A stretch of 64,000 nucleotides of DNA, from the NCBI GenBank assembly GCA_907163375.1, contig CAJQUW010000891.1, forward strand, positions 1-64,000, written 5' to 3'. Of the stretch, positions 27,111 to 44,289 are shown piece after piece. The DNA is from Prostheceraeus crozeri (taxonomy: Eukaryota > Platyhelminthes > Polycladida > Euryleptidae). Position 1 is the first letter of the stretch, and every line of letters begins with the position of its first letter. The notes beneath the pieces were generated by a model that was not told where the DNA came from, searched no databases, and saw only the letters and a program-made list of their open reading frames with translations. The position numbers and the translations under genes are program-made.

Positions 27111-27365
27111 TTTCCAAATGAAAAAGTATACATGGTTAAATCATCCACTTAAGCCCATCCGTAGTCTAACAAGCTCTTTACACATGGATCGCAGTCGATT
27201 GCTATCCCTGTATCAGAAGTGTAAGCCATCTTAATTTTATTTAACACTATTTCATCTACCATCATCGCTCATATGAAATGTTATAAGAGTTACAAGTTAG
27301 ACTAAGCTTGCTACTATTTCCAAATGAAAAAGTATACATGGTTAAATCATCCACTGAAGCCCCAT
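26957..27365. repeat. ~204-bp tandem duplication
   Basis: GTAGTCTAACAAGCTCTTTA starts both at about 26,957 and at 27,161. The two units differ by a few bases. The left arm has one unit (about 1,190-1,325, inverted). This ends the arm just before the first Polinton-side gene. Confidence 0.85.
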
Positions 27366-27412
27366 TCAAGTAACTCAGTATGACAGCAAAGATAATACAA
27401 AATAAAAATTTA

Positions 27413-27880: not shown

Positions 27881-28013
27881 TAACTTTGAAATGTTTTCTA
27901 ATTCTTAAGAATCAACAAGCAACCAATCATAATGAACTGCCAATGAATGATGAATATGAAATTATATATGTAAAGTGACATTCGTGCCATTTCACTCTGT
28001 CTTTCTGACATAT

Positions 28014-28091
28014 AAGTGAAGTGTTCTCTGGCGAATTCTATATTTGAGGCGTACAAGTGAACTGCTCTCTCGTGAATTCCAAATTTGAGTG
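28014..28091 (+). promoter_or_regulatory. Direct repeat in the PolB upstream region
   Basis: AAGTGAAGTGTTCTCTGGCG and AAGTGAACTGCTCTCTCGTG start two ~37-bp units, both continuing GAATTC..A.ATTTGAG. They lie 50-125 nt before the PolB ATG, with a TATA-like CATATAAG at 28,009. Confidence 0.45.
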
Positions 28092-28139
28092 AAGTCTCTA
28101 TCTTGTTGAAGTATCAACCTTAAACTTGATTTCGTTGAA

Positions 28140-31100
28140 ATGGTAAGTTGAAAATTTCTTCACTCATCTCCCTTAAACGTGTGGCTAATAGCATCTTCCT
28201 CAATTTCAGGCATCAACTTCATCACCAACACCCTCCCTTCTCGAGGAAAGTTTAGAGTTGTTGAGTCAAAGTAGGTTGTAACAATACACTGAAACTTGAA
28301 CAGAGATGATAGAATGATTTCTCTTTCAGGTGATGTGAGTTCCAGCTCAGGACTCTCGGGACAAGGCAACGAGTGGGAATGTGCCGACTGCGGACATATG
28401 TTTACAAGGAAGCACAGTCTCCTTCGACACATCAAACAACGTGTGTGTCAACGCAAAGCGGCGTCAATCTCCGGAGGTGAAGTTGATTCTGACGATGACA
28501 TCTCCTTTCCTTGCGATTTGTGCCCTCTTTCTTTTGATAGTCACTTTCAGCGATCTTCGCACAGACTTCAACACACGCATGCAAATGATCACTACACCAA
28601 CGGTACCTCTACCATCTCCCTCATTAATGTTTCACATAGTAATTTAGTACGCGACTACTGCATGGAGTCCAATACTCAAATAGTAGATTTTCCTGAGTGG
28701 CTCCTTCAAAATTCTACCATTATCGAAGCGCTCTTCAACAATTTAGACAATTTTAGAATGAAGGCGCTCATCTACCTTAAACTAAAATATATTAAGATAG
28801 ATTTTCAAACGGGTCAAGTGACGGAGAGAATACAGTTTCATGTTCCTTCCTCTTCCGCAACCGAAGTTGTAGACTGCGAGTCTTGGCTAAATTTTCACAT
28901 TCAATGTTTAAAATCAAATGTAGATAAATTCAATCAATGCGACAGCGCTCTCATTTTTGATGGTGTGGACTCAGCCATATTCAAAATTTCACTATTAGAA
29001 AGTCATGCAGCTCGAGGTACATTTAAACTACCAAAAACGTTGTATAATAAGAAAGCTGTCATCAATGTCGATTGTAAATCACAGTGTTTCAAATATGCAG
29101 TCCTATCCATCCTTCACTATAATGATATCAACGCGAATCGAAATCATACCTATAGCTATAGACAGTGGGAGGATGAAGTAGTCTTTGAAGGTTGTGATAG
29201 TGACAACATGAAAATCAAAGATGTAGAAACGTTCGAAAAACATAATAAGATTAAAATTGTCGTTCACGTGTGGGAGAAGGGGTTGAAGGGTGCCCGCTAT
29301 AATTCACGTTCAACTTGTTATGAACGTGTAGTCAACCTCTTATTAGTAAAACAAGATGATAGCGAGGAATGGCACTACTGTGGTATTCCCAAAATCTCTC
29401 GCTCGTACACACACTTGGGGCACTCTAAAAGAGGTGAACATTTTGTATGCAACCGCTGCATCCGCTCCTTTTGGAGTAAAGATAAATTTGAAACTCACTA
29501 TGAATGGTGCAAGCGAGGTAAATTACAAATGGAACGCATGGCCAAAGATAAAATATTTTCACATAGGGATAATGGTGACGAATTAAGTCCCCTGCGTGTC
29601 ATTTACGCAGACATAGAATGCTACATTGATGATATCATCCACAAGCCAGCAGCCATATCCTGCTATGAAGTATGGCATGACCACTTTAGGAATAGACAAA
29701 ACAAAATGCATACTTGGCAAGGTGAAGATTGCATTTCAAAATTTCTAGAATTTCTCGATAGAGCTGCCAAATTTCAACAATCATATGATTCCCAATTGCA
29801 GCGTAAGTCACTACATATGTCAGATGTAGACAAACAAAAATTTGAAAGTTGCACATCGTGCCCTAAATGTCATAAAACGTTTGATGACGATAAAATTAAG
29901 AAAGTGCGTGATCATGATCACATCACTGGTAAATTTAGAAACGCACTCTGCTCCAAATGTAACTTTTCACTTAGGTTGAGACGTCGTGCACTACCCGTCA
30001 TTTTTCACAACTTTAAGGGCTATGACAGTCATATGCTCATAAAAAGAGGGTTGAGCCAGATGAGATCGTGGCAGTTTGATGTTATAGCGCAAACGAGAGA
30101 AAAATGCATGGCAATGACAGCAAAAGTACCAGTAGATAAAACTAAAGAAAATAAGAGAGTCTTCTTCGAAATAAAATTTTTAGATTCATTCCAATTCATG
30201 TCAGCGTCACTAGCTTCTCTCGTTCGTAATCTCAAGTTTCTTCCCCATAGTCAAACTTTGAAGAAACACTATCCAAACTTAACGGATGAAATAATCACTC
30301 GCAAAGGAGTCTTTCCCTATGCGTATTTTAGCTCAATGTCTAAACTAAATGAAACAACCCTTCCTTCCATTGATAAATTCCAAAACGATTTGACGGGTCA
30401 AGATTGTCCAGTAGAGGACTATGAACATGCTCAAGAGGCATGGTTAAAATTTGATTGTAAAACGTTTGGCGATTATATGATCGCTGACTTAGAATTAGAT
30501 GTCATTTTGCTGGCTGATGTCTTTCAGGAATTTCGACGAGTGGCATTAGAAGAAGACAAATTAGATCCTGTCCACTTTGTCAGTCTACCAGCCATGTCCT
30601 TTAAATCAGCCTTTAAAATGACTGGTGAGACCATCCATCTCTTACAAGACCCGGAGATGTATAACATATTTGAGCGCGGAATACGCGGTGGTCTCACATT
30701 TGTGAATAAACATCACATAAAATCTAAAACAGTAGGTAATGATCATATCCACCTAAAGTACTATGACCAAAATAATTTATATGGCAGTTCACTGTCGAAA
30801 CCACTACCTCATTCCGAGTTTAGTTGGTTAAATCAAGATGAGCTTACGTATTACTCCAACCCTTCAAACATTCTGAAGATTCCAGATGAAGGTGATTGGG
30901 GATATTATTTTGAAGTGGATTTGATTTATCCAAATAGCATTAAAAATAAAACTGCTGATTTCCCACTCGCACCTGAATCTGGTAAAGTGACTGAAGATAT
31001 GTTTTCGCCATTCATGTCACAATTTCATAATAACTTAACAGAGTGTGGACAGCCAAGGTACAAACCATGCCGCAAACTTTTGCTCACCCAATATGATAAG

Positions 31101-32113
31101 AAAAATTATCTCGTGCACTTCTGCATACTAAAATTCTATTTAGAAATGGGTATGCTTCTAAAGTCAGTTCACCGCATTATCAAATTTAGACAGAAAGCCT
31201 TCCTCAAACCTACATAGATAGTAACAGTCAAAAACGTGCACTCGCCCAAAATAATTTTGAAAAGGATTTTTATAAATATAAGAATAACAGTCTTTTCGGA
31301 AAGACCATGGAGGATGTTAGAAAACGTATGAACTACAAACTAGTCGTTGATGAACAAAAATATCACAAATTGACCTCATCACCTCTTTTCATTGATAGAG
31401 ACATCATCGATGAGGATCTTGTAGGTGTTAAAATGATAAAATCTGAAGTTGAGTTGTGCAAACCCATCTATATTGGGCAAGCCGTTTTAGATTATTCCAA
31501 GCTTGAAATGTATCAACTCTTCTACAAAATATTAAAACCATGCCCTCTCGTAAAAGAGGTTCGCTTGCTGGGTGGTGATACAGATAGTTTCTTTTTAGGA
31601 ATTACCACTCAAAAAGATTTAAATTTTAATGAAGTAGGTAAGTCATTAGAAAAATATTTCGACACATCTAACTACAATCCCACTCATCCACTCTATTCCA
31701 TACAGAATAAAGCCAAACTTGGTTGTTTTAAGGTTGAAACAGCAGGAAAGGAAATAGATGAAATGAATCTCCTCCGTCCTAAAATGTATTCCATGAAATT
31801 AAAAGAATGTGCAGATAGTATTAAGCGTGCTAAAGGTATATCAAAATCCATTGTTCACAAAATGAAACATCGGTCCTATAAGAAGGCCTATAAAAATGAA
31901 ACTATAACGTTTGTCAATATGACAATCTTAAAATCTCAAGTTCATACTGTGAAAACGCACACGTTCAAGAAACGAGCACTTTCAGCATGGGAAGATAAGA
32001 GGTGTTGGATAGGACATAACACATCTCTTCCACATGGACATCCTGACACAAACATACCTCCACCCAAAAGAATAAAACTCACGCTACCACATTCAGGAGA
32101 TGTATTGACATAA
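28140..32113 (+). pseudogene. polB: Polinton protein-primed DNA polymerase B (one frameshift)
   Basis: Replicates the element by protein priming. The ATG (28,140) is followed at once by GTAAGT. A 67-nt intron (28,143-28,209) and a 59-nt intron (28,271-28,329) keep phase into the long frame. C2H2-like fingers lie near 28,377 and 28,510, and a Cys/His pair region at 29,450. Exonuclease motif YADIECY is at 29,605. A DHDH/CxxC endonuclease-VII-like insertion is near 29,850-29,970. NFKGYDSH is at 30,010, the ExoIII-type MIADLELD at 30,478, and the motif-A region YYDQNNLYG at 30,757. A one-base loss near 31,210 shifts the frame. NSLFGKTMED (31,290) and catalytic GGDTDSFF (31,572) are in the second frame, as is RPKMYS. 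All key motifs are present, so this is a recent break or an assembly error. Confidence 0.85.
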
Positions 32114-32263
32114 TCAACTTTAACTCAGTATTTTGATGTTGCTTTTTGTAGATATACATGGTTGTTTTATGTATCGCATGAGATCGTTTCTTCCTTGTGA
32201 ATATATGCCTACAGTCAGCTCATTCCCCCTATATCTGTGAAAAGACTTTTTCATATACATATT

Positions 32264-32277
32264 TTTATTTCAATAAA
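32264..32277. terminator. Bidirectional poly(A) signals
   Basis: AATAAA at 32,272-32,277 (+) and TTTATT at 32,264-32,269 (AATAAA on the minus strand) lie between the convergent PolB and minus-strand gene ends. Confidence 0.6.
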
Positions 32278-32292
32278 CATATCACAATGACT

Positions 32293-33809
32293 TCACTTTG
32301 TTTTCCGAAACACTAAAGTTACGAGGGATTTAGTATCTTTCACATGGATGCACTCTTGTAAACCATTGGTAATTTTGATAGTAATAGAGGGTATAGTTTG
32401 TTTGACGACGGGATGATAGAAAATAGATTCAAACATCTTCTCGATTATTCCATATGAAGCGTCTTTATCATGAATGAAATCACGTAAAATGTATTCTTTT
32501 TCCTCGCCAACAGAAATAGGTAGAATCAAATCACTTTGAATGTAAAGGTGTTGTTCATGTTTATTAAGTGTCATTGGTGTTTCTATACCAATCGTATGCG
32601 CAGCAGTAAACACAGTTTGTAGCATTGAAAAACCAAAGAGTTTTTTTCAAATTTTTACTCAATTGACATTGAATGTCATCACCCGGTTTCAGAACAACGC
32701 GTTGATTTTCAATTGAAAACGAAATGTGGTGTGTCTTTACATCATATTTACTTTTCATCACATGCTTCAACTTCTGTTGTATATAAGGATTTACTACATG
32801 AATGAAGCTTTCAACTGTATGATATAGACGCGGCATTATATTGATAGCAACTTTAGATTCTTCATAAGACTGGTAAATTTTCTTGATGTGATCACCATAG
32901 ATGTCCACCCACCATTCATCATTAACTGAATCAGCTTTAGTGTGATATTCATGAGAACCATACCCCACACCGCTTCCAATAATAGGTGTATAATGTCTTA
33001 CAAAATGACGCAAGGTTGGAGAGAAATAAACTGCAAGTTTGTCATTATATTTCTGAATAACCAACTTATTTTTGTCCGCCATAATTTTCTCTCCATACTT
33101 CTTACCCACAGTCTCATTCCATCGTTTTACTAACTCAATAAGTGATAAAGGTTTCAAAATGATGCGTTCTTCACATTCTACAACATCTTCATCAAATATT
33201 TTAAATCTATAATGAAATTTGTTGATTCGATTTGAATAAACTTTTTTAACATTTGCAGTAGCAATTGACGTTAGATGTAGTCCATGACCAAAAACGAGGT
33301 GTTGATAGAATTCATTATCCAACCTCAGTGTAAGACCTTTAGTAAAAGAATGAAAGCGAAGGAACTGTCTCCCACTCCAATGATAGATAGTAAACTCATA
33401 AGCTTTCTGATTTTTATTCTTCATGATGGAAGTATTACCACCATTGAACGCCTTTGAACGCCTTAATAATTTTCTCATTCCCAAATGGTACATAATAATC
33501 TGATTTTATCTGAATCCATTCATAGTTCCACTTTCCATCTGATGTTAAATAGTATGGGAACTGGAATGCATTATTCATCGTTATTCCATCATGGGTGCGA
33601 GGAGTCAATACCATTTCTTCCAAATCATTCACATTCTGAATATTGCTATCATAGCAAATACTAGAAACGCCAACCTCCCATTCACCTTCTAAATGTAGTG
33701 GGCGATTTAATTCTACTCGATAGTGTGATGGTTTATTTTCCGGAAATTTATTCATAGAAGCATTACTGGGTAAGTAGATTAGAAACGAGTCCTTATTTTC
33801 ACTTTCCAT
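32293..33809 (-). pseudogene. Polinton 'GEWEVG' protein, copy C (three frame segments)
   Basis: The start MESENKDSFLIYLPSN (33,809) leads to LHLEGEWEVGVSSICYDS. This is the N-terminal signature of a protein common in animal Polintons and often annotated as uncharacterised. The frame breaks near 33,450, continues 33,450-32,570 (NKLVIQKYNDKLAVYFSPTL region), then breaks again near 32,600 and ends at 32,293. ATGCAAA lies 35 nt upstream. A paralogue is upstream at 35,245. A virion-surface or assembly role is inference from its place among capsid genes. Confidence 0.6.
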
Positions 33810-33843
33810 ATTATTCACATTGGAAAAAATATATTAGCATACT

Positions 33844-33850
33844 TTTGCAT
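33844..33850 (-). promoter_or_regulatory. ATGCAAA motif, gene C
   Basis: TTAATGCAAAAGTATG on the minus strand, 35 nt before the ATG at 33,809. One of six such motifs upstream of Polinton genes. Confidence 0.5.
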
Positions 33851-34323
33851 TAACTCTTCATTCGGAAATGGAGTGTGATACTTGTCACAGCATCTTTATG
33901 AAAAGGAATCAACGCACCAGCATCGTCATAAATTGCAATATCAATTTGTGGGATGTAGTTTGATTTCAGCTTTGTATAATGCACTTTCTTGAAAGTATGC
34001 TCAGATAAAATACTGCAGCTTTTTGGCTGGTATGGTATCATTGCTAGCAATGGAGCCTCAACATCTCCCACACGTACATCTTCACCAATATTGGAATATA
34101 TCTGAAAATAGTTAATACGACGCGATAGCGACATGTCTGCGCTAGCTTTGGTTACAGTATCACTTTTAAAGATATTTTGATCAAAACCCAAAATGTCCAT
34201 TAGAGTTTTATCCATAATTAGTTCAATACCTTTTCCACTTATAGTGAGAGACAAAGTACCTTCTTTTTCAGAAAATGAAATATGTTGCTCATTAATCATT
34301 TCATTTAAATAATCTACAACCAA
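33850..34323 (-). CDS. Polinton 'GEWEVG'-family C-terminal module
   Basis: 157 codons with no certain ATG at the start. The N-terminal part (ISFSEKEGTLSLTISG, then LMDILGFDQ) is the fold repeated in copies A and C. The end, NYIPQIDIAIYDDAGALIPF, then TLHFRMK, is the typical C-terminus of this family. It is either the C-terminal half of the preceding gene A, shifted by frame breaks, or a third tandem copy that lost its N-terminus. Confidence 0.55.
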   Translation of the reverse strand: MVVDYLNEMINEQHISFSEKEGTLSLTISGKGIELIMDKTLMDILGFDQNIFKSDTVTKASADMSLSRRINYFQIYSNIGEDVRVGDVEAPLLAMIPYQPKSCSILSEHTFKKVHYTKLKSNYIPQIDIAIYDDAGALIPFHKDAVTSITLHFRMKS

Positions 34324-35245
34324 TTTAACTGAGTAATAATGCGAGGCATCAACACTCTTGTTTCATGTAAGATACCACCTAAAGGCTCTACACACTTTCT
34401 GTATAAAGATACGGTCCATTCTGTATCAAATTGATTTGACCTTTCACATGGTAAATGTTGCATATCAATTTTCCATGAACAGCTGCAGAATGATGTCGTA
34501 AGAACTGATGAAAATCTTTTGAAAAAACTAATACTAGATTATCATCATTTAATTTACTTATTGCAATATGATTAGATGATTTGATATAAGTCAATGTTGC
34601 CACTTGTTTACCATCAACTCGAAGGAGATAATTAAATTTCTTCAATAATGTTTCAGGAGTCATATTTGTTTTTCTTGGCTTAATCACAATCTTCTTCACC
34701 AACGTCTTCTCATTTCTTGGAATAAGATCTACATAATAAGCTTCCTCTCGATATATTAACTGTTTATAACCACTTATGTGGTAATTAACGTTAAATTTAT
34801 CATAGTTTGTTAAGGCGCTAGCGAGGTAACCTAAATCATTTCTTAAACTTGGACTTAAACCAACAATCCAATCTTTCTCAACTACATGATGTACATAATT
34901 ATGATCATCATTGTGCGGAGTGAATTGGACAATATGTTTACACGCTTTATTCAGGAAATCATATATAAACTTTTTACATGATAAGAGATCTTTCTTTGGC
35001 CACTGTGGAATGTATACTCGGCACCCCTTTTCACATTGGTAAGCAGCTGTACGTCTCATATTAATAGTCATCACCTAATGATCAAAAGTATAGACACAGT
35101 TGCTATAAACAAGTTGAGTGACACCCACTTCCCACTTTCCATTTAGCTGTTGTGTATGATCAATGGGAGTAGAAAAGAGTGCGGCTCGATTACTAGCAAA
35201 TCTATTTGCGGCCGCATTGCTAAGCAAAATATGATAAAACGACAT
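34322..35245 (-). pseudogene. Polinton 'GEWEVG' protein, copy A (in-frame stop)
   Basis: ATG at 35,245 gives MSFYHILLSNAAAN, then LNGKWEVGVTQLVYSN. An in-frame TAG at about 35,077 interrupts it, and the same frame stays open to 34,388. A shift near 34,395 then gives EPLGGILHETRVLMPRII, ending near 34,322. It is paralogous to copy C (FSKDFHQFLRHH versus FSPTLRHFVRHY). The ATGCAAA motif lies 23 nt upstream. Confidence 0.6.
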
Positions 35246-35267
35246 TTTTATATTGCTGATCTGCGAC

Positions 35268-35274
35268 TTTGCAT
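35268..35274 (-). promoter_or_regulatory. ATGCAAA motif between divergent genes
   Basis: TTATGCAAAGTCGCAGATC on the minus strand, 23 nt before gene A. It lies 7 nt before the + strand ATG at 35,281. Only 35 nt separate the two divergent starts. Confidence 0.55.
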
Positions 35275-35280
35275 AACATC

Positions 35281-35637
35281 ATGAAGATTTGGATTTTGGA
35301 CTCTCTACAATATATCAGAGTTGATCGTGATGGAAACGTACATTTCAAAAATTCTCATGGTCATACATCAAGAGGTATTACATTAACATGGCGACAATTT
35401 GTCAACCTCAATGATATCATGAGGGATTTGGAATATTTTGAAACATTAAGATTCATCTCCTTGGGTGATCAAGTTTGGCTTCAACGTCGCAACAATGAAA
35501 TTCAAATCTGCCATTCTCATTCCGCAAACTGTTTCTCATTTCGCAAATACAATTGGGAGAAGTATAGAAGATACATACATCGCTCCATCATGACATTTAT
35601 TCGTCGTGAGTTCATCGCCCTACTATGCAAATCTTAA
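35281..35637 (+). CDS. PC4-like protein 1
   Basis: 118 residues from the ATG at 35,281. Two half-repeats are visible. Residues about 6-55 are WILDSLQYIRVDRDGNVHFK, then RGITLTWRQFVNLNDIM. Residues about 58-110 are SLGDQVWLQRRNNEIQI, then FSFRKYNWEKYRRYI. The pattern (beta strands, then Gly-Ile/Phe-Ser/Thr-Leu...W/F and a helix) resembles the ssDNA-binding PC4/p15 coactivator fold, duplicated. It is followed 23 nt later by a paralogue and then by the TBP-like gene. A role in element transcription or ssDNA binding is inferred. Confidence 0.5.
   Translation: MKIWILDSLQYIRVDRDGNVHFKNSHGHTSRGITLTWRQFVNLNDIMRDLEYFETLRFISLGDQVWLQRRNNEIQICHSHSANCFSFRKYNWEKYRRYIHRSIMTFIRREFIALLCKS
35625..35631 (+). 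promoter_or_regulatory. ATGCAAA motif, PC4-like gene 2
   Basis: CTATGCAAATCTTAATCAG, 28 nt before the ATG at 35,660, inside the last codons of PC4-like gene 1. Confidence 0.5.
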
Positions 35638-35659
35638 TCAGACATGACTACCACGCACC

Positions 35660-36310
35660 ATGAGTTGGAAATTAGATTCCCTACAACGTATTGAAACGGA
35701 TCATGATCGAAACGTCTATTTCAAGGATTCAACTGGAAATGTGAGAAGAGAGTTTGCTTTATCTTATCGTCATTTTCAATCTCTACATCATATCATGAAG
35801 GATTTGAAATACTTCTATATGAAAAGACATTCACGTATTGGAAATCGCATCTGGCTGCGCGTCAACAATCGGCGAATTCAACTCTATCATTCCCAACTTC
35901 ATACTAACTTCACATTTCATCAAGGTAGTTGGGAAAAGTATAAAAGGAAGGTACATCGCTCAATTTACTCATTCTTTCATCATGAAGCGCCATCGCTACA
36001 CCATCGTCAACATTCTCCGTCGCTTCAGACTCTACACCAAAATCGATCTCACAACATTACACCAACACCTTCCAAACAGCAAGTATTACCCGGGCCGACC
36101 TCAAATGTTAGTGGTGAAGATGAACAATTCACGGAATCTTCAACTCTTCCCAAATGGGACTGTACAGATTCTCGGCGCCCTTTCTCATTCATCGGCGCAG
36201 TCAATGCGCTTAGAGCTACAAAGACTACTACGTCGGATATGGAAGAGGGAGAGGTGTGTGATGTCGAATCTGACTGTGGACAATATGGTGATCTCTACTC
36301 AATTGAGTGA
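35660..36310 (+). CDS. PC4-like protein 2
   Basis: The first ~110 residues match PC4-like protein 1 along their length: WKLDSLQRIETDHDRNVYFK, REFALSYRHFQSLHHIM, RIGNRIWLRVNNRRIQL, NFTFHQGSWEKYKRKVHRSI. After about 35,990 the frame overlaps the TBP-like gene in another phase and becomes Ser/Thr/His/Pro-rich, then acidic. It does not look like a domain, so the tail (to 36,310) may be incidental read-through. Divergence from copy 1 implies an old duplication kept by selection. Confidence 0.5.
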   Translation: MSWKLDSLQRIETDHDRNVYFKDSTGNVRREFALSYRHFQSLHHIMKDLKYFYMKRHSRIGNRIWLRVNNRRIQLYHSQLHTNFTFHQGSWEKYKRKVHRSIYSFFHHEAPSLHHRQHSPSLQTLHQNRSHNITPTPSKQQVLPGPTSNVSGEDEQFTESSTLPKWDCTDSRRPFSFIGAVNALRATKTTTSDMEEGEVCDVESDCGQYGDLYSIE

Positions 36311-36527
36311 AAGTGTATCATTTTTGAAGATTCGTACCAGCAGTTACAATTTGTGTTATGAACCCGAACTTTTTCCTGCAGCTGTCATTAGTTGTTGGTT
36401 ACCTGTGCATGTGGCAATCTTTCATAATAGTAAAGTGATCATTACTGGACTAAAATCTCATGTACAAGCAAATGTGATCCTAGACTATCTCATCGAGTAT
36501 GTACGTACCCAGCGGATTGTAAAATAA
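35982..36527 (+). CDS. TATA-binding-protein-like protein encoded in a Polinton
   Basis: 181 residues, the size of a TBP core alone, from the ATG at 35,982. Two direct repeats are visible, about residues 7-88 (TIVNILRRFRLYTKIDL, then NLQLFPNGTVQILGA) and 98-178 (DNMVISTQLSESVS, YEPELFPAAVI, VAIFHNSKVIITG). YEPELFP followed by an IF..S.KV..TG strand is the hallmark of TBP repeat 2. Of the four intercalating Phe positions known in TBP, three are kept by alignment (Phe56, Phe131, Phe147) and one is replaced (Pro40). There are no stops, unlike many neighbouring genes. It probably binds TATA promoters of the element or host. The start overlaps the 3' end of PC4-like gene 2. Confidence 0.8.
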   Translation: MKRHRYTIVNILRRFRLYTKIDLTTLHQHLPNSKYYPGRPQMLVVKMNNSRNLQLFPNGTVQILGALSHSSAQSMRLELQRLLRRIWKRERCVMSNLTVDNMVISTQLSESVSFLKIRTSSYNLCYEPELFPAAVISCWLPVHVAIFHNSKVIITGLKSHVQANVILDYLIEYVRTQRIVK

Positions 36528-36558
36528 AAAACAATTTTTCCAACATGATGTTTTTATT
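36523..36558. terminator. Bidirectional poly(A) signals
   Basis: AATAAA at 36,523-36,528 overlaps the stop of the TBP-like gene (+). TTTATT at 36,553-36,558 gives AATAAA for the protease end on the minus strand. Confidence 0.6.
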
Positions 36559-37015
36559 TCAAATCATGATAGAACTTATAAATCATTTTTTCATTAGAGG
36601 ATGGATTACATGAAAAGTTTTGAATAACAGATGCAAATCGAGATACATGTAAACGTTTTAAGATGAAGTACAGTACAAAAGCACCACACGTTGATGAAAG
36701 TGGATGTTGTAGTATGCGTTCATTTCGCTGATATTGACGCGTATGTTTTCTCAACCACTGCTGTGTTGGAATATTTGGAGGTTGAGCAAGAGAGTCAAAT
36801 AGTTCACCACGTCGGTCTTCTCCAATAAAGATCGCTTTCCAATGCTCACCGCCTAAATTCTGCGAATGAGTGTTTAGCACATTAAAGATGGGATAGTGAT
36901 TTACTGCAGGTGGTAAGGTATCGAGTGAATAGACATTATCGAAAGCTTTCAACGTCGCTTCGTCTGCATTACGCTGCACTTTAGTCTTAATATCGTCAGC
37001 AGTCAACCAACTCAA
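36554..37015 (-). CDS. Adenain-like cysteine protease
   Basis: Capsid-maturation protease of the Ulp1/adenain type. The ~150-residue frame shows the catalytic order His58 (GGEHWKAIFI), Asp74 (ELFDSLA), Gln103 (RILQHP) and Cys110 (SSTCGAFVLYFI). Length is below that of most relatives (about 170-200). No ATG exists between the upstream stop and WLTADD; the frame begins at a TTG that overlaps the MCP stop codon. The start codon may have mutated, or translation may couple to the MCP gene. The catalytic set is intact. Confidence 0.85.
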   Translation of the reverse strand: MSWLTADDIKTKVQRNADEATLKAFDNVYSLDTLPPAVNHYPIFNVLNTHSQNLGGEHWKAIFIGEDRRGELFDSLAQPPNIPTQQWLRKHTRQYQRNERILQHPLSSTCGAFVLYFILKRLHVSRFASVIQNFSCNPSSNEKMIYKFYHDLK

Positions 37016-38291
37016 TAACGATTATACTGAAGAATCACGTCACGATACTTTGTAGTTTCAATATTTGAATCGAAGACTGCATAAATTAATACATTGATCG
37101 TCTCAGGTAGTGTTCTTTTGAACGTCAAATCCAAACGAATATTATGAGGCACGTTCGCTTGACGATAGGGGCACTAATATCGCTGTCAGCAGTCAAATCA
37201 AATGCATAAATAGTATATCCACTCTTAAACTCTTTCATAGTCAGTCCGTTGGTGTCATCCGTATTGTAAAAGCCAAAGACATCCATAAAATCAACATAAC
37301 TGCGCATAAATTGATCCGAAGCAAAATCTGGTTTGTAGGGTGGACCAGGATGACTCACACCATTTGCACGTAAAGCAATTTCACTTAACTGATTGTGTTT
37401 AAAATTGAAAGGATTCTTCTTTATATTACCATTAAATGCATCATTTTCAACCATTGCCACCATAAGGAGCTTCGGTGCTTCCGATGGAAAGAGGCCATCT
37501 TTCATGAAACTCTTTTGATCTTTCGGAATTGTAAAGGTGAGAAGCTTTGTATGCTGAACAGGGTAAATGGCATTTTGGCGGTTAAGACCTTCAGCATGTC
37601 CTCTAATTACACTTGGATTCGGTACTACTCGACGAATGTAAAGTGCAATATCTTCCACATGAATTCTAAAATTGTCAACTTTAGCAAATGCATTCAGCGC
37701 AAAGTCAGGCTTATTCAATGTCAGCTTGAGTCGCATGCTGGTATTACAGAGTAAAAACTTTGACTGTCTAAAGAAGTCTAAATTCAGCGGACCATATAGC
37801 TGACATACTCTACTATCTTTAATCATAGCAGATCGCTTTACAAAGCCACTGTTTGTTTCAACATCAAATTTTCCTGCTTCATCTCTGTACCATCCCATGG
37901 CTTCCATATGACTTTTTTGTGCTGCTGGATGAAACTGTGATACATGATTGAAATATGATTTATAGGGATAATCGCTTTGACCACCTTCCACCTGCTGCTC
38001 TCCAATCGTTAGAGAAACATCGCGAAGTAATGTAGTCAATGGTATATTGTTCAGTCCAACTTTATGTGTATCGTCAATAGCAGTTCCATCTGCTTGCTGA
38101 ATTCTAAACCTCAAATCAACCATCGCATAACTCAAATCTATGTAGTCATCACTACCACCAGGAATAACAAATTCAATGGGGCCAGCATTCTCAGCAGTTC
38201 GAGGATGATAATCTACAATACTTGAACTAAGAATATCTGTCTGTATGGCTTGTTGATCAAACAAACAAAAACCGGAAGTTTTACACTCCAT
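37012..38291 (-). pseudogene. mcp: Polinton major capsid protein (late frameshift)
   Basis: Double-jelly-roll MCP. GPIEFVIPGGSDDYIDLSYA near the N-terminus, then LRDVSLTIGEQQVEGG and YPYKSYF, are typical of Polinton capsids. The frame from 38,291 is open for 388 codons to 37,125. The real C-terminal part (RLDLTFKRTLPETINVLIYA...TKYRD) continues in another frame to 37,012, so a single indel lies near 37,160. Nearly all of the fold is in the first frame. It lies between the pVI-like and protease genes, the usual Polinton order. Confidence 0.85.
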
Positions 38292-38296
38292 GATTA

Positions 38297-38749
38297 GAAG
38301 TTATAGCAGCGTCGTCGTTTAGCGCCTGATGAATGATTAGAGCCTCTGCGACGTTTGCGTGAATGCCTTTTGACTGAAGATCGCACCTTATCAGCTCCGC
38401 GATGTTTCCTCCTTCATTTATTCATTCGTTTAGGTGATTTCTTTCCTTGAGTAACACCAGCAAAGGTCTGCTTCAATGTTTTTAAACCGCGTTCCTTCCC
38501 ACGATTCAACAAACTGCTCTTAAAACTTCTACCTCTGGAAAGATCACTAGCAACATCACCAGCAAAGCCAACGGCATTACTTAAAACATTTCGTTTTAAA
38601 GATCTACCGACATTGGATATGAGAGGTGCTACAACAGATTTCAGTGCACCAAGTATGCTACCTCCACGTTGGCGGCGAGCACCGATGTAAATTTGTCCTC
38701 CACCACTTACATAGGAGGGTCGTGAATAAAATGAGGCAGTTGGATTCAT
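38297..38749 (-). pseudogene. pVI/pX-like capsid-associated protein (internal TGA)
   Basis: MNPTASFYSRPSYVSGGGQI, then a Gly-rich RQRGGSILGALKSVVAP amphipathic segment and a basic C-terminal region ending KRMNK at a TGA (38,414). The same frame then stays open for about 38 more codons, very basic (HSRKRRRGSN, GAKRRRC), as expected for the DNA-binding tail of this family. The TGA is therefore probably a mutation. Polinton relatives of adenovirus pVI/pX act in membrane penetration or packaging; function here is inferred. ATGCAAA lies 31 nt upstream. Confidence 0.6.
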
Positions 38750-38780
38750 AGCTCAAACCCTAAACATTGTCAGTTACAAC

Positions 38781-38787
38781 TTTGCAT
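38781..38787 (-). promoter_or_regulatory. ATGCAAA motif, pVI-like gene
   Basis: TTCATGCAAAGTTGTAACTG on the minus strand, 31 nt before the ATG at 38,749. Confidence 0.5.
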
Positions 38788-38790
38788 GAA

Positions 38791-40011
38791 TCACTGTCGA
38801 TCACTTAGATGAAAGATGTCGGCACGACGCATCCATGAGTTCATACTTGAAGGATAACCAGTCCATTTAACAAGACACCATTCTTCACCTTGCCGTTTTT
38901 TACATCGAATGATTTTCTCTACCAAATATGTTTCACTTTCAGTGACTACCTCAATCTCATCGCGGTAAAAGCTACCCTCAATTTCTTCATTATCGTAATC
39001 TTTCAACTTGTAGGTGGTCGGAGAGTCTTTTTGATTAATCCTTGATACTGTAAATACCTCCTCTGTCCAATTCGGAAGGTACCCTTTAGCAAAAACACTT
39101 TTAACTTTTGAGATACGAACTTTATCACCAATTTTCACATCACTTTTCAAATGAGTGCGTTTACGTTGCAATGATTCGCGCACTTTATCTACATTGTCAG
39201 CATTTACATCTACTGGTCTGAGTTCAATAGAACGATGGATAGAGTGATTGTAGGCATGGAGTGTATCCTGTAGAACCTTTGTCCAATTTTGTGTCAAGTT
39301 GGCAGTAAAATGTCGCCACAAGCGATTTTTTAATGTGCGATTAAAACGTTCAACGAGTGCAGCTTTATAAGCACTCTTTACACTAAACAACTCAATGTCA
39401 TGCCTCCCAAATAATCTTCTCACATGCTGATTTTCAAACTCTTTTCCTTGATCACTCTGAATTCTTTTTGGAATGCGACCTTCTCGAAAAATTGTTTGGA
39501 ATGCTTTTGCTACTCCTTTCCCTTCTTTAGTTTTTAAAGGTTGAGCCCACGCATAACGCGAGAAAATATCAATGACGGTTAAAATAAAATTATTGCCCGA
39601 GTTATGTTTTGAAATGGAGGCGACATCACACAACTCTGCTTGCCACTGTTCATCGATGTCATGAACAATATAATGGCGGGTGCGGTACTTCTTTTTCGCT
39701 TGTTTGTGGAGTGTATAGGTAGCCTGACCCTTTAACCATCGTTTCACTTGTGATTGTGGAAGACCACTCGCTTTTGATGATTTCTTGATAGATGCAAATC
39801 CTGCCGGATGTTTTACATCATAATAGATTGACTTCAAACGTTCAGTCGATGACGACTGACTCTTTTTCCTCCTTCTCATCTTTTTGTTTTCTTGCCTTTC
39901 TACATTTACAACAACTGCAGCATTTAGCTTTAGCGGTTTTGCGATCGAGTTCACATTGCTTAGGGGTTTCATTGTGAGAGCTGGCGCAGCAAGTGCAAGT
40001 GACAACGACAT
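38791..40011 (-). CDS. int: Retroviral-type integrase with C-terminal chromodomain
   Basis: Inserts the element into the host genome. The DDE core shows Asp in AELCDVASI, Asp in RIQSDQGKEFE and Glu in KAALVERFNRTLK. IDIFSRYAW and HAYNHSIHRSI are further core landmarks. An SH3-like segment (GDKVRISKVK, then YLPNWTEEVF) follows, and a chromodomain ends the protein (YLVEKIIRCK...EWCLVKWTGYPSSMNSWM). The frame is open over its full length. The true start is probably the MRRRKK methionine near 39,880, because the first ~44 codons overlap a Cys-rich ORF in another phase. Confidence 0.9.
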   Translation of the reverse strand: MSLSLALAAPALTMKPLSNVNSIAKPLKLNAAVVVNVERQENKKMRRRKKSQSSSTERLKSIYYDVKHPAGFASIKKSSKASGLPQSQVKRWLKGQATYTLHKQAKKKYRTRHYIVHDIDEQWQAELCDVASISKHNSGNNFILTVIDIFSRYAWAQPLKTKEGKGVAKAFQTIFREGRIPKRIQSDQGKEFENQHVRRLFGRHDIELFSVKSAYKAALVERFNRTLKNRLWRHFTANLTQNWTKVLQDTLHAYNHSIHRSIELRPVDVNADNVDKVRESLQRKRTHLKSDVKIGDKVRISKVKSVFAKGYLPNWTEEVFTVSRINQKDSPTTYKLKDYDNEEIEGSFYRDEIEVVTESETYLVEKIIRCKKRQGEEWCLVKWTGYPSSMNSWMRRADIFHLSDRQ

Positions 40012-40063
40012 TCACCTCTGGCGGCTCATTACACGGCAAGCAACACATCTGCTTCATTTTCAT
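39842..40063 (-). CDS. Small Cys-rich protein overlapping the integrase start
   Basis: 73 residues with 14 Cys: CCLPC, CTCC, C, then CCSCCKC, followed by a Lys/Glu-rich tail. The density and spacing of Cys are unlikely to arise as a shadow of the integrase frame, and the integrase is not conserved over this stretch. It starts (MKMKQM) inside the last codons of the upstream gene. Probably metal-binding; no family recognised. Confidence 0.45.
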   Translation of the reverse strand: MKMKQMCCLPCNEPPEVNVVVTCTCCASSHNETPKQCELDRKTAKAKCCSCCKCRKARKQKDEKEEKESVVID

Positions 40064-40751
40064 AGTCTGAGAACATGTATTTCCTGGGAGGAGCTGTTTT
40101 ACGTTTTCCTTTTACTAGTTTTAGTGGTGGTGTAGATCTACGTCGAGTTCTTCCTCTTGTTTGCTTAGTGAGTGTGGGAGGGGATGTAGAAGGTGACGTC
40201 TTAAACCAATTTGTTGGCATTTTCATCGTCTGAAGCATTGGAGCAGTAGCCACTGTTGAATCAAGTTCTTTCAATGTCTCATTATTCAAAGCAAATTTTG
40301 GCACATTATGCTTTTTCAATAGTTTAAGAAAGTATGACCAACCAGGTGGAACATAGCCCTGACGGCGCTTTCTACGTGTCGCATACTGAATCAAGTCTTC
40401 ATAACGTGAAGCATCAATCACTTTATTTTCATCTGTAATGATTTCTCCTCTATCATTTACATTGAGATGGGGTTCAATACTGTTGAAAAGAGATATGGCA
40501 TGTGCGCGAGATGCTAAAGGTGTAGCAGTCGATACAGAGTCACGCATCTTATTCTTCAAGTTTTTCAATTGCTCAACAGTTCCCGATTGTAATAATACAG
40601 CACGATGTGGATCTTTGATGTGAACATTTTGCTGATAATCTATTTCTTTCCTATACATTTGATTTGCAAGAGGTTGCTTTACTTGCTGCATGGCAGTCAA
40701 TTGTACATATTCATCCTGAGGAATAACAATCATGCGAGAATAAGAACTCAT
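40029..40751 (-). CDS. Conserved Polinton protein upstream of the integrase
   Basis: 240 residues. The N-terminus MIVIPQDEYVQL is a pattern seen at the start of a common Polinton protein. A coiled SGTVEQLKNLKNKMRDSV segment follows, then a compact domain (EDLIQYATRRKRRQGYVPPG, then FLKLLKKHNVP). The C-terminal tail is basic and Pro/Thr-rich (RGRTRRRSTPP). It overlaps the ATPase stop by 4 nt. Function unknown; the middle resembles a small DNA-associated domain. Confidence 0.6.
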   Translation of the reverse strand: MSSYSRMIVIPQDEYVQLTAMQQVKQPLANQMYRKEIDYQQNVHIKDPHRAVLLQSGTVEQLKNLKNKMRDSVSTATPLASRAHAISLFNSIEPHLNVNDRGEIITDENKVIDASRYEDLIQYATRRKRRQGYVPPGWSYFLKLLKKHNVPKFALNNETLKELDSTVATAPMLQTMKMPTNWFKTSPSTSPPTLTKQTRGRTRRRSTPPLKLVKGKRKTAPPRKYMFSDYENEADVLLAV

Positions 40752-41365
40752 AGTTTGTAGATAATCTTGGGAGTTTTCAAAATATCACTTCGAAATCTAA
40801 ATTCTTCCGGACACTCTTGTGTAAAGTCAATGAATAAGTAACCGTATGGTTTTTCAGTAGCTGCTTGAAAAATTTCAATTAAGGCTTTTGATCCTCTGGG
40901 TGCAACTTGTCGCGCTAAAATTTCAAATTGACTTTTATCTCGCGGATTCTTGAAAATAGCATAATAGTGTGTATTCAGGTTTCGTGTACGAGCTTCTTTT
41001 CCATCAGGAAACAAATTTTGTGTGATATAGATGATAAAACACCTTTTATGATGTGCTGCGCGACTGAACATATCTGTAACATCTTTAGAATTCTTACTTT
41101 CTTTTAATAAATCATCCAATACAACAACATCATTAGACTGAAGTTTATCCACTGCAATAATTCCTTCATGTCGAATAAAGTTGCGACTTTGCAATTCCTG
41201 AAACAGCGACGGTTGATAAATACCATAACACCAAATCACTCGATTGATAGGTTCCTTAAACAACTCCCTTCTTTTATCCAATAAATTCAGCGTGAAAACA
41301 GTTTTACCTGCAAGAGATGGACCTGATACAGTCAGAACTTTATCGCATTGAAGTCTGAAATCCAT
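40748..41365 (-). CDS. FtsK/HerA-type genome-packaging ATPase
   Basis: 205 residues. Walker A GPSLAGKT (residues 15-22), Walker B VVVLDD (80-85), and a HHKRCFIIYITQNLF sensor-type strand near residues 105-120 are the A32-like packaging ATPase pattern of Polintons and related viruses. It would pump element DNA into capsids. The frame is intact. ATGCAAA lies 25 nt upstream. Confidence 0.85.
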   Translation of the reverse strand: MDFRLQCDKVLTVSGPSLAGKTVFTLNLLDKRRELFKEPINRVIWCYGIYQPSLFQELQSRNFIRHEGIIAVDKLQSNDVVVLDDLLKESKNSKDVTDMFSRAAHHKRCFIIYITQNLFPDGKEARTRNLNTHYYAIFKNPRDKSQFEILARQVAPRGSKALIEIFQAATEKPYGYLFIDFTQECPEEFRFRSDILKTPKIIYKL

Positions 41366-41389
41366 TTTAATACTTTGAGATTAAAAACA

Positions 41390-41396
41390 TTTGCAT
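41390..41396 (-). promoter_or_regulatory. ATGCAAA motif, ATPase gene
   Basis: AATTATGCAAATGTTTTTAA on the minus strand, 25 nt before the ATG at 41,365. Confidence 0.5.
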
Positions 41397-41398
41397 AA

Positions 41399-41755
41399 TT
41401 AACGCTTAGAGCCAAAGATATTACCCAATAGGTTACCCACGACAGGAGCTAACATTAGAAGTATTGCTGAAAGGAAACCACCCTTTTCTGTTAGAGTTTT
41501 CCTCTTTCTTTGAAGGGTGACTTTAGGATTGGAGATGAAACGCAATTTTGTGGCATATCGCTTAAGTAACTTTCGTTGTTTTGGTGCTAATTTCTTCGTC
41601 CTCAACTTCCTCACATGAGAAATAATTTCACAAATGAATTTATCGTTAGCATGTCGTATAGCATTGTATCGCTGATTTGCTTTCATTCGTCGGAGAGTTT
41701 GAATGGCTGAAGAAAACTTTTGACTTTTACGTTTCGTCATTTTACGTTTCACCAT
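41399..41755 (-). CDS. Small basic protein with C-terminal hydrophobic helix
   Basis: 118 residues. It starts strongly basic (MVKRKMTKRKSQKF), then a helical region. It ends KRKTLTEKGGFLSAILLMLA with a hydrophobic, Gly-rich segment. This layout (basic, 'KGGFL', hydrophobic end) is common in a Polinton protein next to the ATPase, probably virion-associated. No enzymatic motif. Confidence 0.6.
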   Translation of the reverse strand: MVKRKMTKRKSQKFSSAIQTLRRMKANQRYNAIRHANDKFICEIISHVRKLRTKKLAPKQRKLLKRYATKLRFISNPKVTLQRKRKTLTEKGGFLSAILLMLAPVVGNLLGNIFGSKR

Positions 41756-41794
41756 TTTCCGTGTTAGTCTTTGCTAAAACCTATATTTACCACA

Positions 41795-41801
41795 TTTGCA
41801 T
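41795..41801 (-). promoter_or_regulatory. ATGCAAA motif, small basic protein gene
   Basis: CCTATGCAAATGTGGTAAAT on the minus strand, 40 nt before the ATG at 41,755. Confidence 0.5.
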
Positions 41802-41806
41802 AGGTA

Positions 41807-42136
41807 CTAACTATTGCGGCATAAGTGACACTCGAAATGAGCAATATCACAGTGGTTACATTTGCAAAGTTGAATGCAATTACGTATGAAACAGCGTTGA
41901 CAAAAAGCGTGCTTACATCTCTTGAAGATGCGCTTTTCATTTCCATCCTTTCGCTCACATACATCACAACACATAGTTTCACCGTTACTGATGTCTATAG
42001 CAAGTCTTCTTGAAGATATGAATTTGCTAGCCTTTTCTAAATAATAGACGCATGTACAGAAGGAATATACTTCGAGAGTGAGCAGACATAGCTCGAAAAC
42101 CAGTTGTGCTACAATTAAGTACCACTGCATTTTCAA
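41807..42136 (-). CDS. Membrane-anchored RING-like protein
   Basis: 109 residues. The N-terminal ~30 residues (WYLIVAQLVFELCLLTLEVY) form a membrane segment. The C-terminal half has CDVC, then FKRCKHAFCQRC, then CKCNHC and CHLC. This is a RING-like zinc arrangement with C-x-H-x2-C-x2-C in the middle. It could act as an E3 ubiquitin ligase on membranes, as several viral RING proteins do (inference). It overlaps the next gene upstream by 4 nt. Confidence 0.55.
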   Translation of the reverse strand: MKMQWYLIVAQLVFELCLLTLEVYSFCTCVYYLEKASKFISSRRLAIDISNGETMCCDVCERKDGNEKRIFKRCKHAFCQRCFIRNCIQLCKCNHCDIAHFECHLCRNS

Positions 42137-42396
42137 TTTTTCTTTATGGAAAGTTGAATGTGAATATCTGAAATCGCTTCAATCACTAGACTGCTACCAA
42201 GATGGTTAAATGCGTTAAGACGTTCAGCAATTTTTATCATATGTCTTTTAAAAAATTCTTCGGGGTGATCTACCACTTCCATTGAATAAGAAGCAAAATG
42301 GAAAGAGCGACTTTCCACCTCTTCCTTTCCAAAATGACTAAACTTAATTTTCGCAACTAATCGCGCCATGATAATGCTATCAGAGAATGTATTCAT
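42133..42396 (-). CDS. Stand-alone homologue of the PolB N-terminal domain
   Basis: 87 codons; the likely start is MARLVAK at 42,369 (78 residues). The end, FFKRHMIKIAERLNAF, then SSLVIEAISDIHIQLS, aligns with part of this element's own PolB N-terminus (WLNFHIQCLKSNVDKFN, then ALIFDGVDSAIFKIS, near 28,885-28,990). The domain precedes the exonuclease in many Polinton polymerases; here it is duplicated as a separate gene. Function unknown. Confidence 0.55.
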   Translation of the reverse strand: MNTFSDSIIMARLVAKIKFSHFGKEEVESRSFHFASYSMEVVDHPEEFFKRHMIKIAERLNAFNHLGSSLVIEAISDIHIQLSIKKN

Positions 42397-42492
42397 TTAC
42401 TCTAGAAATAGAGTGCTAGCATCATCGACCACTGCTTCGATGTCGGTCTCATCTTTATGAAAATTATTTCACATAATCTTGAACAGCTCCTT

Positions 42493-42819
42493 TTAAACTT
42501 TGCCTATGAAAATGTAATGTTCCGCAGTCGTTTGAGAAAGACATGATCTCCCTTTATCTAACCCATCCATTGCATGAAAACAACTCTTCTCATAGTAACA
42601 TTTATTGAATAACGGTAACAAGCATGCATTATAAATCAATGGTTTGAAAGAGATAAAATAGATACAGGTGGTAACTATCATACAGCGAGCAATGATAACC
42701 ATACAGGACTTTGGCAGTGTTGAGGTAAGGAGGAAAGAAGCATTGGCTATGAACGTAGCTACTACAACGAACAGACAAAATAGGAACAGACAAATCCTTA
42801 AAACGTTTCGTGACTTCAT
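42493..42819 (-). CDS. Possible small two-helix membrane protein
   Basis: 108 codons. Two hydrophobic segments (ICLFLFCLFVVVATFIANAS; CMVIIARCMIVTTCIYFI) follow MKSRNVLR. It overlaps the 3' part of the exonuclease-like gene for 190 nt in another phase, so it may be a shadow. Only the hydrophobicity supports it. Confidence 0.25.
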   Translation of the reverse strand: MKSRNVLRICLFLFCLFVVVATFIANASFLLTSTLPKSCMVIIARCMIVTTCIYFISFKPLIYNACLLPLFNKCYYEKSCFHAMDGLDKGRSCLSQTTAEHYIFIGKV

Positions 42820-43180
42820 GATAGTGTTGATTCACTCTACTATCCCAAGGCGGGAGCAAAATATCATCAATGATTAGATTGGGAAATACTTTCCTCTCCT
42901 TACCAGGATTATTACAAAAGATGCGTATAACATTGAAAGCAGCTAACCATCGTTTAAAGTCAATAAGAAGAGCACTCTCACAAGAAAAGCCATAGTCTTG
43001 CAAATATTTCAGATTAAGTCCATGAATGTGTTTTCTCGCCCATTGATCAACATTGGGATCGCAGTTGGCATGTTGATGATAGACACTAACAATCTGATAT
43101 GTCCAATTGTTCATAGCAATAGCACTGAGCTCCTGTACAGGTTCACCCTCACAATCCATAAAAATGATGATAGAAGCCTA
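42629..43180 (-). CDS. DEDD-exonuclease-like protein
   Basis: 176 codons from MDCEGEPVQELSAIAMN. The frame extends upstream to ASIIIF, and a TTTTAG acceptor-like site lies just before, so an upstream exon is likely. IIIFMDCEG fits exonuclease motif I (DxE) after a hydrophobic strand. HIHGLN, a NPGKER segment, LIIDDILLPPW and QHYHEVTKRFKD look like later motifs. It ends with GYHCSLYDSYHLYLFYLF. Similar uncharacterised proteins occur in animal genomes. Exonuclease activity is inference. Confidence 0.45.
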
Positions 43181-43211
43181 AAACGGAAATTTACACATCT
43201 AAGGAAACGTT

Positions 43212-43460
43212 CTATAACATATTACAAAATGAAGAATTACATCGATGCTTTTCACGACAAAATACACAAATGATATGATGGCAACGAAGAAGTAAAATGT
43301 ATCTAATAAGACCACGTCTACGACACTCAAAGCACATAAGCGAATTGTCATAGGGTAGAGTTAGGAAAGGACTAGTAATTCTCCTTCTTTGATTTGCGTT
43401 TTGAGGCAGCATTCTTCTCCGACTTGCGCTTCGTACCACTGCTGTTAAGGATTTGATCAA
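43212..43460 (-). CDS. Second RING-like short protein
   Basis: The C-terminal ~45 residues read MCFECRRRGLIRY, then LRCHHIICVFCREKHRC, then CNML: C-x2-C, C-x-H, C-x2-C and C in RING spacing, with the last pair weak. The first ~35 codons overlap the end of the 43.4-44.1 kb gene in another phase, so the real start is unclear (possibly spliced). Confidence 0.4.
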   Translation of the reverse strand: MIKSLTAVVRSASRRRMLPQNANQRRRITSPFLTLPYDNSLMCFECRRRGLIRYILLLRCHHIICVFCREKHRCNSSFCNML

Positions 43461-44146
43461 TTATGTCGTCCACATTGGGTGGTTTTGGAATATATAGGAT
43501 GGATTCCATATGCATGGAGAGAGAGGCTATTTTATTATCCTTGTGCCGACCATAATATAGCCCATTCACTTTGAAAAGGATATCCCAAGTACCTTCTCCG
43601 AGCTCATCACATCTGATGGGTATTGAATGATCTCCCTCCTTCTTATAGTAAGTACACCAATGTGATACCGGTAGGCAAATGTGATTACCATCCCAAATCT
43701 TTCTATAGGGAGTATCCTTGTCATCTCTCGCCTTCCACTCTTGAGCAAGAGTAGTAGGAATGTCCATATTTAATGTCACGTACTCCTCAATAATATCAAG
43801 TTGGCGGCGAATGTACGGGCTCACGGGGATCAGTATGTAGTCCCCATACTGATTGTGCATTATCTTGACATCCGTGGAAGGGAGCATTCCCGTTTGGAGT
43901 ACTACGCCATGATCGTCATAACGCAAGACCTGTTTAAATTTACGCTGTAGCGGTGTAGGATTATGTACCTTGGTTGTTTCTTCCACTGGCCTCAGTTGTA
44001 GATGATCTGATCGTAGCGAACCTTGTAACGTTTGACCGCCATTTTTTCCTACTAGTGCAGCAGATGGAGTAGATGCCTGAAAATGAAAAAGATTGTATTA
44101 AGTTTACGTTCAAGGGAGGAGAGGGAGGGAAGTAGCGACTTACCAT
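43372..44146 (-). CDS. Outer Polinton gene with ATG-only first coding exon
   Basis: ATG at 44,146-44,144 is followed at once by GTAAGT. A 67-nt intron (44,143-44,077) ends TTTTCAG, and exon 2 (44,076-43,372) keeps phase, giving 235 residues beginning M-ASTPSAALVGK. The body has PLQRKFKQVLRYDDHGVVLQ, then YIRRQLDIIEEYVTLNM and CLPVSHWCTYYKK, and a basic end (KRKSEKNAASKRKSKK), a likely nuclear localisation signal. No family recognised. Its 5' end and intron are homologous to those of PolB at the other end. Confidence 0.65.
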
Positions 44147-44238
44147 TTTAGTTGGATAATAGAATAGATAGAGATAGAAAATGTGCGTCCGTCACTCGTG
44201 TGATTCAATGATGGAATGATTCTCACTGTGGAAGGCTC

Positions 44239-44252
44239 GCTATTTATATAGA
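44239..44252 (-). promoter_or_regulatory. TATA box of the outer Polinton gene
   Basis: TCTATATAAATAGC on the minus strand, about 95 nt before the ATG at 44,146. Confidence 0.65.
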
Positions 44253-44289
44253 AATGCTTGATTCTCATTGGATGACGATCCTCATTGGA

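Follow-up and report, generated by a model that had tools for sequence, protein, structure and literature searches.

The window analysed here, a stretch of 64,000 nucleotides from the flatworm Prostheceraeus crozeri, holds an element of the Polinton/Maverick type that encodes a full two-lobed TATA-binding protein (TBP). The protein belongs to a separate clade and evolved under purifying selection, and its gene keeps those for the protease and capsid as neighbours in an unchanging order. We think that this element-borne TBP probably acts as a promoter-recognition factor for the Polinton, and it is somewhat likely that it would bind element promoters and recruit host TFIIB and RNA polymerase II. 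Polintons are placed close to the origin of many DNA viruses of eukaryotes and, to our knowledge, little is known about how they start their own transcription. Two things set the case apart: the TBP is an addition to the Polinton gene set and, for a TBP of viral type, it retains the TFIIB interface.

The TBP gene and its relatives

A first-pass annotation of the sequence had proposed an intact ORF of 181 residues with two TBP repeats, a YEPELFP motif and three of the four DNA-intercalating phenylalanines, and all of these features were recovered. The ORF opens with ATG at 35982 and its stop ends at 36527, giving 181 codons plus the stop with no internal stop; PF00352 matches it in two stretches (E=3.1e-21; 75.5 bits, where 22.9 is the cut-off), a strong score for a profile search on which the proposal had been staked; YEPELFP is present; and Phe occupies human positions 210, 284 and 301, with Pro at 193. 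The protein thus has three of the four intercalating Phe that mark canonical TBP. These four residues mark canonical TBP and not the Pfam family; in the host TLF, the residues found at the three Phe positions covered are W, H and Y. The predicted structure shows the two-lobed TBP saddle fold and, unlike cellular TBP, the element protein is without an N-terminal extension. A chance ORF is ruled out by the Pfam match together with the predicted TBP fold and its structure matches.

The host's own TBP, with exons at C9306, is 87% identical (133/153) to a metazoan TBP core, and the host TLF is located at C3829. The element TBP is 25% identical to host TBP (38/150), 20.5% to TLF (23/112) and 30% to the archaeal TBP 2z8u (47/158), its identity to cellular TBPs of PF00352, eukaryotic and archaeal, being about 19–30%. 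In the tree against host TBP that the annotation had called for, 18 element-type proteins among 23 rows form one group with 100/100 support; the group consists of the window protein and 17 of 19 homologues (two shorter than 170 aa were left out), no viral TBP is among the rows, and long branches meet there, as the tool warned. The low identity and the separate clade rule out a recent processed copy of host TBP. An origin from host TLF/TRF2 was also rejected, given the 20.5% identity and the differing residues at the Phe positions.

The 19 TBP homologues come from a large protein collection (ENA and Logan sources) and are 33–78% identical over the alignment. The nearest could be from the same or a near species, since own-genome copies are 81–92% like the window's, and the far ones seemingly come from elsewhere, since matches to P0017 in this genome are just 35–39% identical (among the 150 listed). 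The longest contig is 7106 bp for TBP P0006 and for capsid P0133 alike, and 1771 bp for TBP P0001 and for PUR-like P0021; these common values suggest that TBP is linked to capsid or PUR-like genes in other sources. PUR-like P0020 and capsid P0024 are 96–99% identical to the window's proteins and share a longest contig of 12,876 bp (JGI, Logan and ENA), and near-identical element copies are therefore present in other public data. No relative was confirmed in IMG/VR, prokaryote genome contigs or phages. The three best own-genome places for another capsid relative, P0068, are C12605:339972-341249, C12088:106041-107222 and C13101:326567-327847 (56–62% identity), of which the C12605 and C12088 places look like another Polinton lineage.

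The element, its genes and its copies

The element (Table 1) has the TIRs and the 6-bp TSD of Polintons/Mavericks, the TIRs being about 340 bp each with 98% identity, and it has their retroviral-type integrase, with both rve and Chromo domains. The first-pass annotation had described it as capsid- and PolB-bearing; the TIRs, TSD and integrase sustain the class, while PolB and capsid stand as putative, without a profile match. In the putative PolB ORF we recognised YYDQNNLYGSSL, GDTDS and NNSLFGKTMEDVRKR, which we take to be PolB motifs. Profile searches of the element ORFs gave no profile fitting PolB and no match of double-jelly-roll capsid type, and PDB searches for both proteins returned just zinc-finger and weak unrelated rows; the two names therefore derive from motifs, ORF size and the order of the genes. 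The capsid ORF in the window has about 388 aa, against about 425 aa in relatives (most among the 120 of 316 homologues listed). The Pfam score of the protease is weak, at 18.4 bits against a cut-off of 20.7. A small ORF at 41810-42130 has a hydrophobic N-terminus and a Cys-rich, RING-like end (weak Pfam row, E 0.12).

Table 1. Positions in the window of the element, its genes and the candidate promoter boxes
Feature	Position	Strand	Basis or remark
TSD TCGGGG, left	22932..22937	.	
Whole element, Polinton/Maverick type	22938..45523	.	22,586 bp; TIRs and 6-bp TSD
Left TIR	22938..23278	+	334/342 aligned columns identical to right TIR
Putative protein-primed PolB	28314..32113	+	Two frames in this copy; Endonuclease_7 E 2.8e-6 and motifs
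ATGCAAA box before g33833	33844..33850	-	ATGCAAA in 15/19 copies
ATGCAAA box before g35074	35268..35274	-	TAYGCAAA in 16/20 copies
PUR-alpha-like fold protein a, 118 aa	35281..35637	+	Predicted fold
ATGCAAA box before PUR-like b	35625..35631	+	In last codons of PUR-like a; TAYGCAAA in 15/20 copies
PUR-like protein b	35660..36310	+	Paralogue of a (44% identical); shares its last 329 nt with TBP, read in a different frame
Canonical TATA box TATAAAAGG	35939..35947	+	43 nt before TBP ATG, inside PUR-like b coding sequence
Element-encoded TBP, 181 aa	35982..36527	+	Pfam, PDB, AlphaFold, tree
Ulp1/adenovirus-type protease	36554..37015	-	Pfam C48 E 0.0021, C5 E 0.038, both below cut-off
Putative major capsid protein	37125..38291	-	Inferred from ORF size, gene order, 316 homologues; C-terminus truncated here
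Small basic protein, tentatively a minor virion protein	38414..38749	-	Weak sub-threshold Pfam row, E 0.072
ATGCAAA box before small gene 38414-38749	38781..38787	-	ATGCAAA in 15/17 copies
Integrase with chromodomain	38791..40011	-	Pfam rve E 2.1e-9, Chromo 6.2e-7
Putative packaging ATPase	40748..41365	-	Pox_A32 E 0.037 (weak, sub-threshold) and Walker-like motif
ATGCAAA box before ATPase	41390..41396	-	3/3 covering copies
ATGCAAA box before g41773	41795..41801	-	Single covering copy has ACGCAAA
Right TIR	45185..45523	-	
TSD TCGGGG, right	45524..45529	.	Exact copy of left TSD

Both PUR-like ORFs lie directly upstream of TBP, the predicted PUR-alpha-like fold concerning a, and the two proteins may be co-factors or ssDNA-binding proteins. 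PC4, an earlier identity for these ORFs, was replaced by PUR-alpha-like. Where TBP shares nucleotides with the PUR-like b frame, its dS is not clearly reduced (0.224 versus 0.256).

Copies of the element are abundant. A 23-mer from TBP (up to two mismatches) has 2924+2778 = 5,702 matches in the 2.05-Gb genome of 14,165 contigs, where the reversed control pattern has 0; such a number is the mark of a very successful element, with thousands of copies. The TBP protein finds at least 150 places in the genome, all listed ones with at least 98% identity. Five near-identical copies are 97.8–98.5% alike across 3.5 kb, from which we infer that the element was amplified recently.

We also compared 20 diverged copies (TBP 81–92% identical to the window's), with 10 kb examined in each; these are a non-random sample, being the top of a ranking by likeness to cellular TBP with two places skipped, one of them near a contig end. 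All 20 gave matches to TBP, to the protease, to some or all of the capsid gene and to the PUR-like ORFs (matches of both paralogues pooled); the integrase was matched in 18 and the ATPase in 15, counts that pool decay with the ends of the stretches. The Polinton setting claimed for TBP is upheld by its position next to protease and capsid genes in 20/20 diverged copies as well as by the 19 homologues. Furthermore, TBP and capsid matches lie 494–555 bp apart on at least 14 contigs, one being that of L042, in a by-eye comparison of lists.

As to selection, which the annotation had proposed to gauge across copies, median pairwise dN/dS is 0.251 for TBP (21 sequences), indicating purifying selection, 0.301 for the protease (21), 0.304 for the capsid (18) and 0.406 for the integrase (18), all four medians being inflated by decay after insertion. 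The first-pass annotation had further noted that TBP is unbroken among damaged neighbours. This is true of the window copy, in which PolB is split over two frames, the capsid ORF is shortened and the g35074 ORF is without an N-terminal part present in other copies; it fails as a general rule, as 7 of the 20 diverged copies have a stop inside TBP and the remaining 13 have none where it aligns. Such stops would suit a recently captured or decaying cellular TBP copy that is functionless in the element, a reading that is contradicted by the 25% identity to host TBP, the separate clade, the dN/dS of 0.25 and the 19 homologues, and that we regard as extremely improbable.

TBP surfaces and candidate promoter boxes

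Residues were compared in human numbering (core from 155) across the window protein and 18 homologues, with functional roles (Phe intercalation, DNA contacts) taken over from the human positions. No member with a residue at the site departs from N163, F210, N253, V255, F301 or T309, and a single member departs from F284. At position 193 Pro stands in for Phe wherever a member has a residue; Leu or Met replaces Thr family-wide at position 218, and mainly Leu/Met replaces Val at 165. Set against the kept C-lobe residues, these changes indicate that the N-lobe DNA face has been rewritten family-wide and that of the C-lobe has not. With one intercalating Phe of four gone and a central Thr changed, the element TBP may bend DNA weakly.

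Both glutamates of the C-lobe YExE are invariant in 20/20 proteins (window and 19 homologues), and we take these to be TFIIB-contact residues. Passages of a study of TBP evolution fit this assignment; they describe viral TBPs as varying at these glutamates, and a TFIIB-like protein as present in almost all TBP-bearing viruses studied (PMC7221094). No TFIIB or RNA polymerase subunit was found among the element ORFs scanned with Pfam, a scan that some small ORFs lay outside and that a divergent TFIIB could escape. Use of host TFIIB is predicted because the glutamates are invariant and the scanned ORFs include no TFIIB or polymerase, and also because, in the passages concerned, viral TBPs vary there and usually come with a TFIIB-like protein (PMC7221094) and ORF24 of KSHV is without the acidic residues (PMC12529657). 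The annotation's suggestion that the protein could redirect host polymerase to element promoters is an inference helped by the conserved TFIIB-contact residues and by the candidate upstream box described below. Kept TFIIB-contact residues and an altered N-lobe DNA face would also suit a host-shutoff factor in competition with host TBP over TFIIB; this is a very unlikely role, as the three Phe and the checked C-lobe DNA contacts, which a pure competitor would not need, are kept as well.

Two kinds of sequence recur upstream of element genes. TATAAAA is found at the place of the TATA box before TBP in 17/20 copies, and recurs at 35563 in 16/20. The second is ATGCAAA. Of the sense 7-mers it is the most frequent, whether 60, 90 or 120 nt upstream are counted; it stands before 6 of 15 tested ORFs, at −31 to −46, and is absent before 9; an equally common 7-mer was seen in 0, 1 and 6 per 2000 random sets from the same element (60, 90 and 120 nt), the word having first been spotted by eye in the same 17 upstream stretches, and the test corrects for the choice of word and not for word length or stretch. 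A smaller first random run gave 1/300. The best 8-mer, TATGCAAA, stands before 4/15 ORFs (2, 14 and 35 per 2000 random sets), and 6-mers were weaker (28, 190 and 681 per 2000). The 15 starts are from a set of 17, g32646 and g33505, both without the word, having been dropped beforehand; g34362 and ORFs near the element ends were not entered. Start codons were set by eye, a few being off by some bases; that of g35074 was taken from other copies, and that of the protease in the window copy is TTG.

Box columns in four intergenic gaps are conserved at 0.986, against 0.730 for other columns (p 9e-4, with columns treated as independent; the gap between g35074 and PUR-like a is covered by one copy and the ATPase gap by three, and of the six boxes those preceding PUR-like b and g41773 are left out). 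On the other side, ATGCAAAK is not enriched over the whole window (12 seen, 10.6 expected), and the number of conserved TAYGCAAA sites, three, was equalled or beaten by 5 of 60 permuted 8-mers. We therefore regard the recurrent upstream box as a candidate promoter element with moderate support that is partly contradicted.

It is conceivable, and we offer it tentatively, that the element TBP reads TATGCAAA-like boxes before some genes (6/15 tested) and that host TBP could read TATAAAAGG of the TBP gene. The grounds for proposing such box reading are the substitutions on the N-lobe DNA face (Pro for Phe193, Leu/Met for Thr218, mainly Leu/Met for Val165), set against a C-lobe face that is kept. 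A two-stage system may be considered at the same tentative level, in which host TBP would read TATAAAAGG before the TBP gene and give early TBP expression; the element TBP, with its rewritten N-lobe, would then read TATGCAAA-like boxes at a TATA-box-like distance before some genes (a distance argument that assumes very short 5′ leaders) and join host TFIIB and Pol II, turning on the late structural genes. This switch from early (host TBP) to late (element TBP) would parallel the TATT promoters of beta- and gamma-herpesviruses, a parallel that is our own.

Three of the six boxes are exactly ATGCAAAT, which we take to be the POU octamer. Together with TATAAAAGG before the TBP gene and the unchanged C-lobe DNA face, they would fit an ordinary extra TBP acting at TATA promoters, the ATGCAAAT-like box being a POU octamer for a host Oct-type factor. 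We judge this unlikely, since the boxes are sense-oriented within a narrow range, −31 to −46, like core promoter elements, the remaining three are ATGCAAAG or ATGCAAAA, and the N-lobe DNA face is changed across the whole TBP family. A role in integration or replication, with TBP tethering the integrase or a replication complex to promoter-like or bent DNA, also has some precedent in mobile elements that land on TBP complexes: Ty3 uses a TBP-containing complex, TFIIIB, as its landing site. The clustering of the TBP gene with genes for PUR-like, putatively ssDNA-binding proteins would accord with such a role, which leaves the invariant TFIIB-contact glutamates and the upstream boxes unexplained and appears to us quite improbable.

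Relation to known systems

Promoter recognition by a virus-borne TBP has several points of comparison. Many NCLDVs encode RNA polymerase. Like the element protein, the TBPs of giant viruses (BFVD entries) and, in parts of one study, mirusviruses are two-lobed and borne by dsDNA viruses (PMC10132985); the genomes of these viruses are far larger, whereas the Polinton has 22.6 kb and no TFIIB or polymerase among the scanned ORFs. The TBP mimics of beta- and gamma-herpesviruses, such as KSHV ORF24, act with host Pol II at TATT, a TATA variant of late promoters, according to passages of two studies (PMC12529657, PMC7498053). The likeness lies in a virus-encoded TBP for a TATA-variant box, although for the element the reading of the box is a proposal. 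As described in those passages, ORF24 is larger and multi-domain, is without the acidic TFIIB residues and has four required Phe (PMC12529657, PMC7498053), whereas the element TBP is a bare core with the acidic TFIIB residues kept and three Phe.

The element shares with Polinton/Maverick the TIRs, 6-bp TSD and integrase, to which may be added the weakly scoring protease and ATPase and the putative PolB and capsid; TBP and the pair of PUR-like genes come on top of this set. In the text of the paper used for this comparison, TATA, TBP and transcription are absent as terms, and a paper on double-jelly-roll viruses makes no mention of TATA or TBP (PMC11071308). In open-licence PMC literature on Polinton, Maverick, adintovirus, Polinton-like virus and Preplasmiviricota, represented mainly by titles and abstract openings, no Polinton with a TBP was found. 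TATA-binding proteins are sporadic in algal elements of putative mirusvirus origin that are without PolB or a double-jelly-roll capsid, as parts of one report describe (PMC10675990).

A Polinton TBP seemingly built for host TFIIB would be a minimal and testable case of promoter capture, unlike large viruses that bring TFIIB or polymerase, and, with one of its lobes changed and the other kept, the protein would be useful for studies of TBP specificity. If the two-stage reading is true, a self-contained early/late switch would reside in a transposon-virus of 22.6 kb that brings neither TFIIB nor polymerase and has been amplified to thousands of copies.

Elsewhere in the host genome, mitochondrial cox1 was found (G000:C6227:16551-17132) as part of a large frame that extends it far at the N-terminus, with cox2 nearby. 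The SL1 pattern of nematodes, allowing up to 1 mismatch, had 0 matches, and a nematode host was rejected. Within the window, a Tc1/mariner-like transposase remnant at 22053-22937 abuts the left TIR, its ORF entering the TIR (weak DDE_3, E 0.038). Pieces of a related element at 1156-7492 match the element at 23.9–27.3 kb in inverted orientation with 92–98% identity, and other pieces there match it at 44.3–44.9 kb in direct orientation with 81–87% identity. The flanks also hold reverse transcriptase pieces at 57047-58006 (RVT_1 E 1.4e-17) and 18410-20920 (RVT_1 9.5e-7, under the cut-off), and an endonuclease piece at 55069-55818, within 55069-58006 (Exo_endo_phos 0.0023, under the cut-off).
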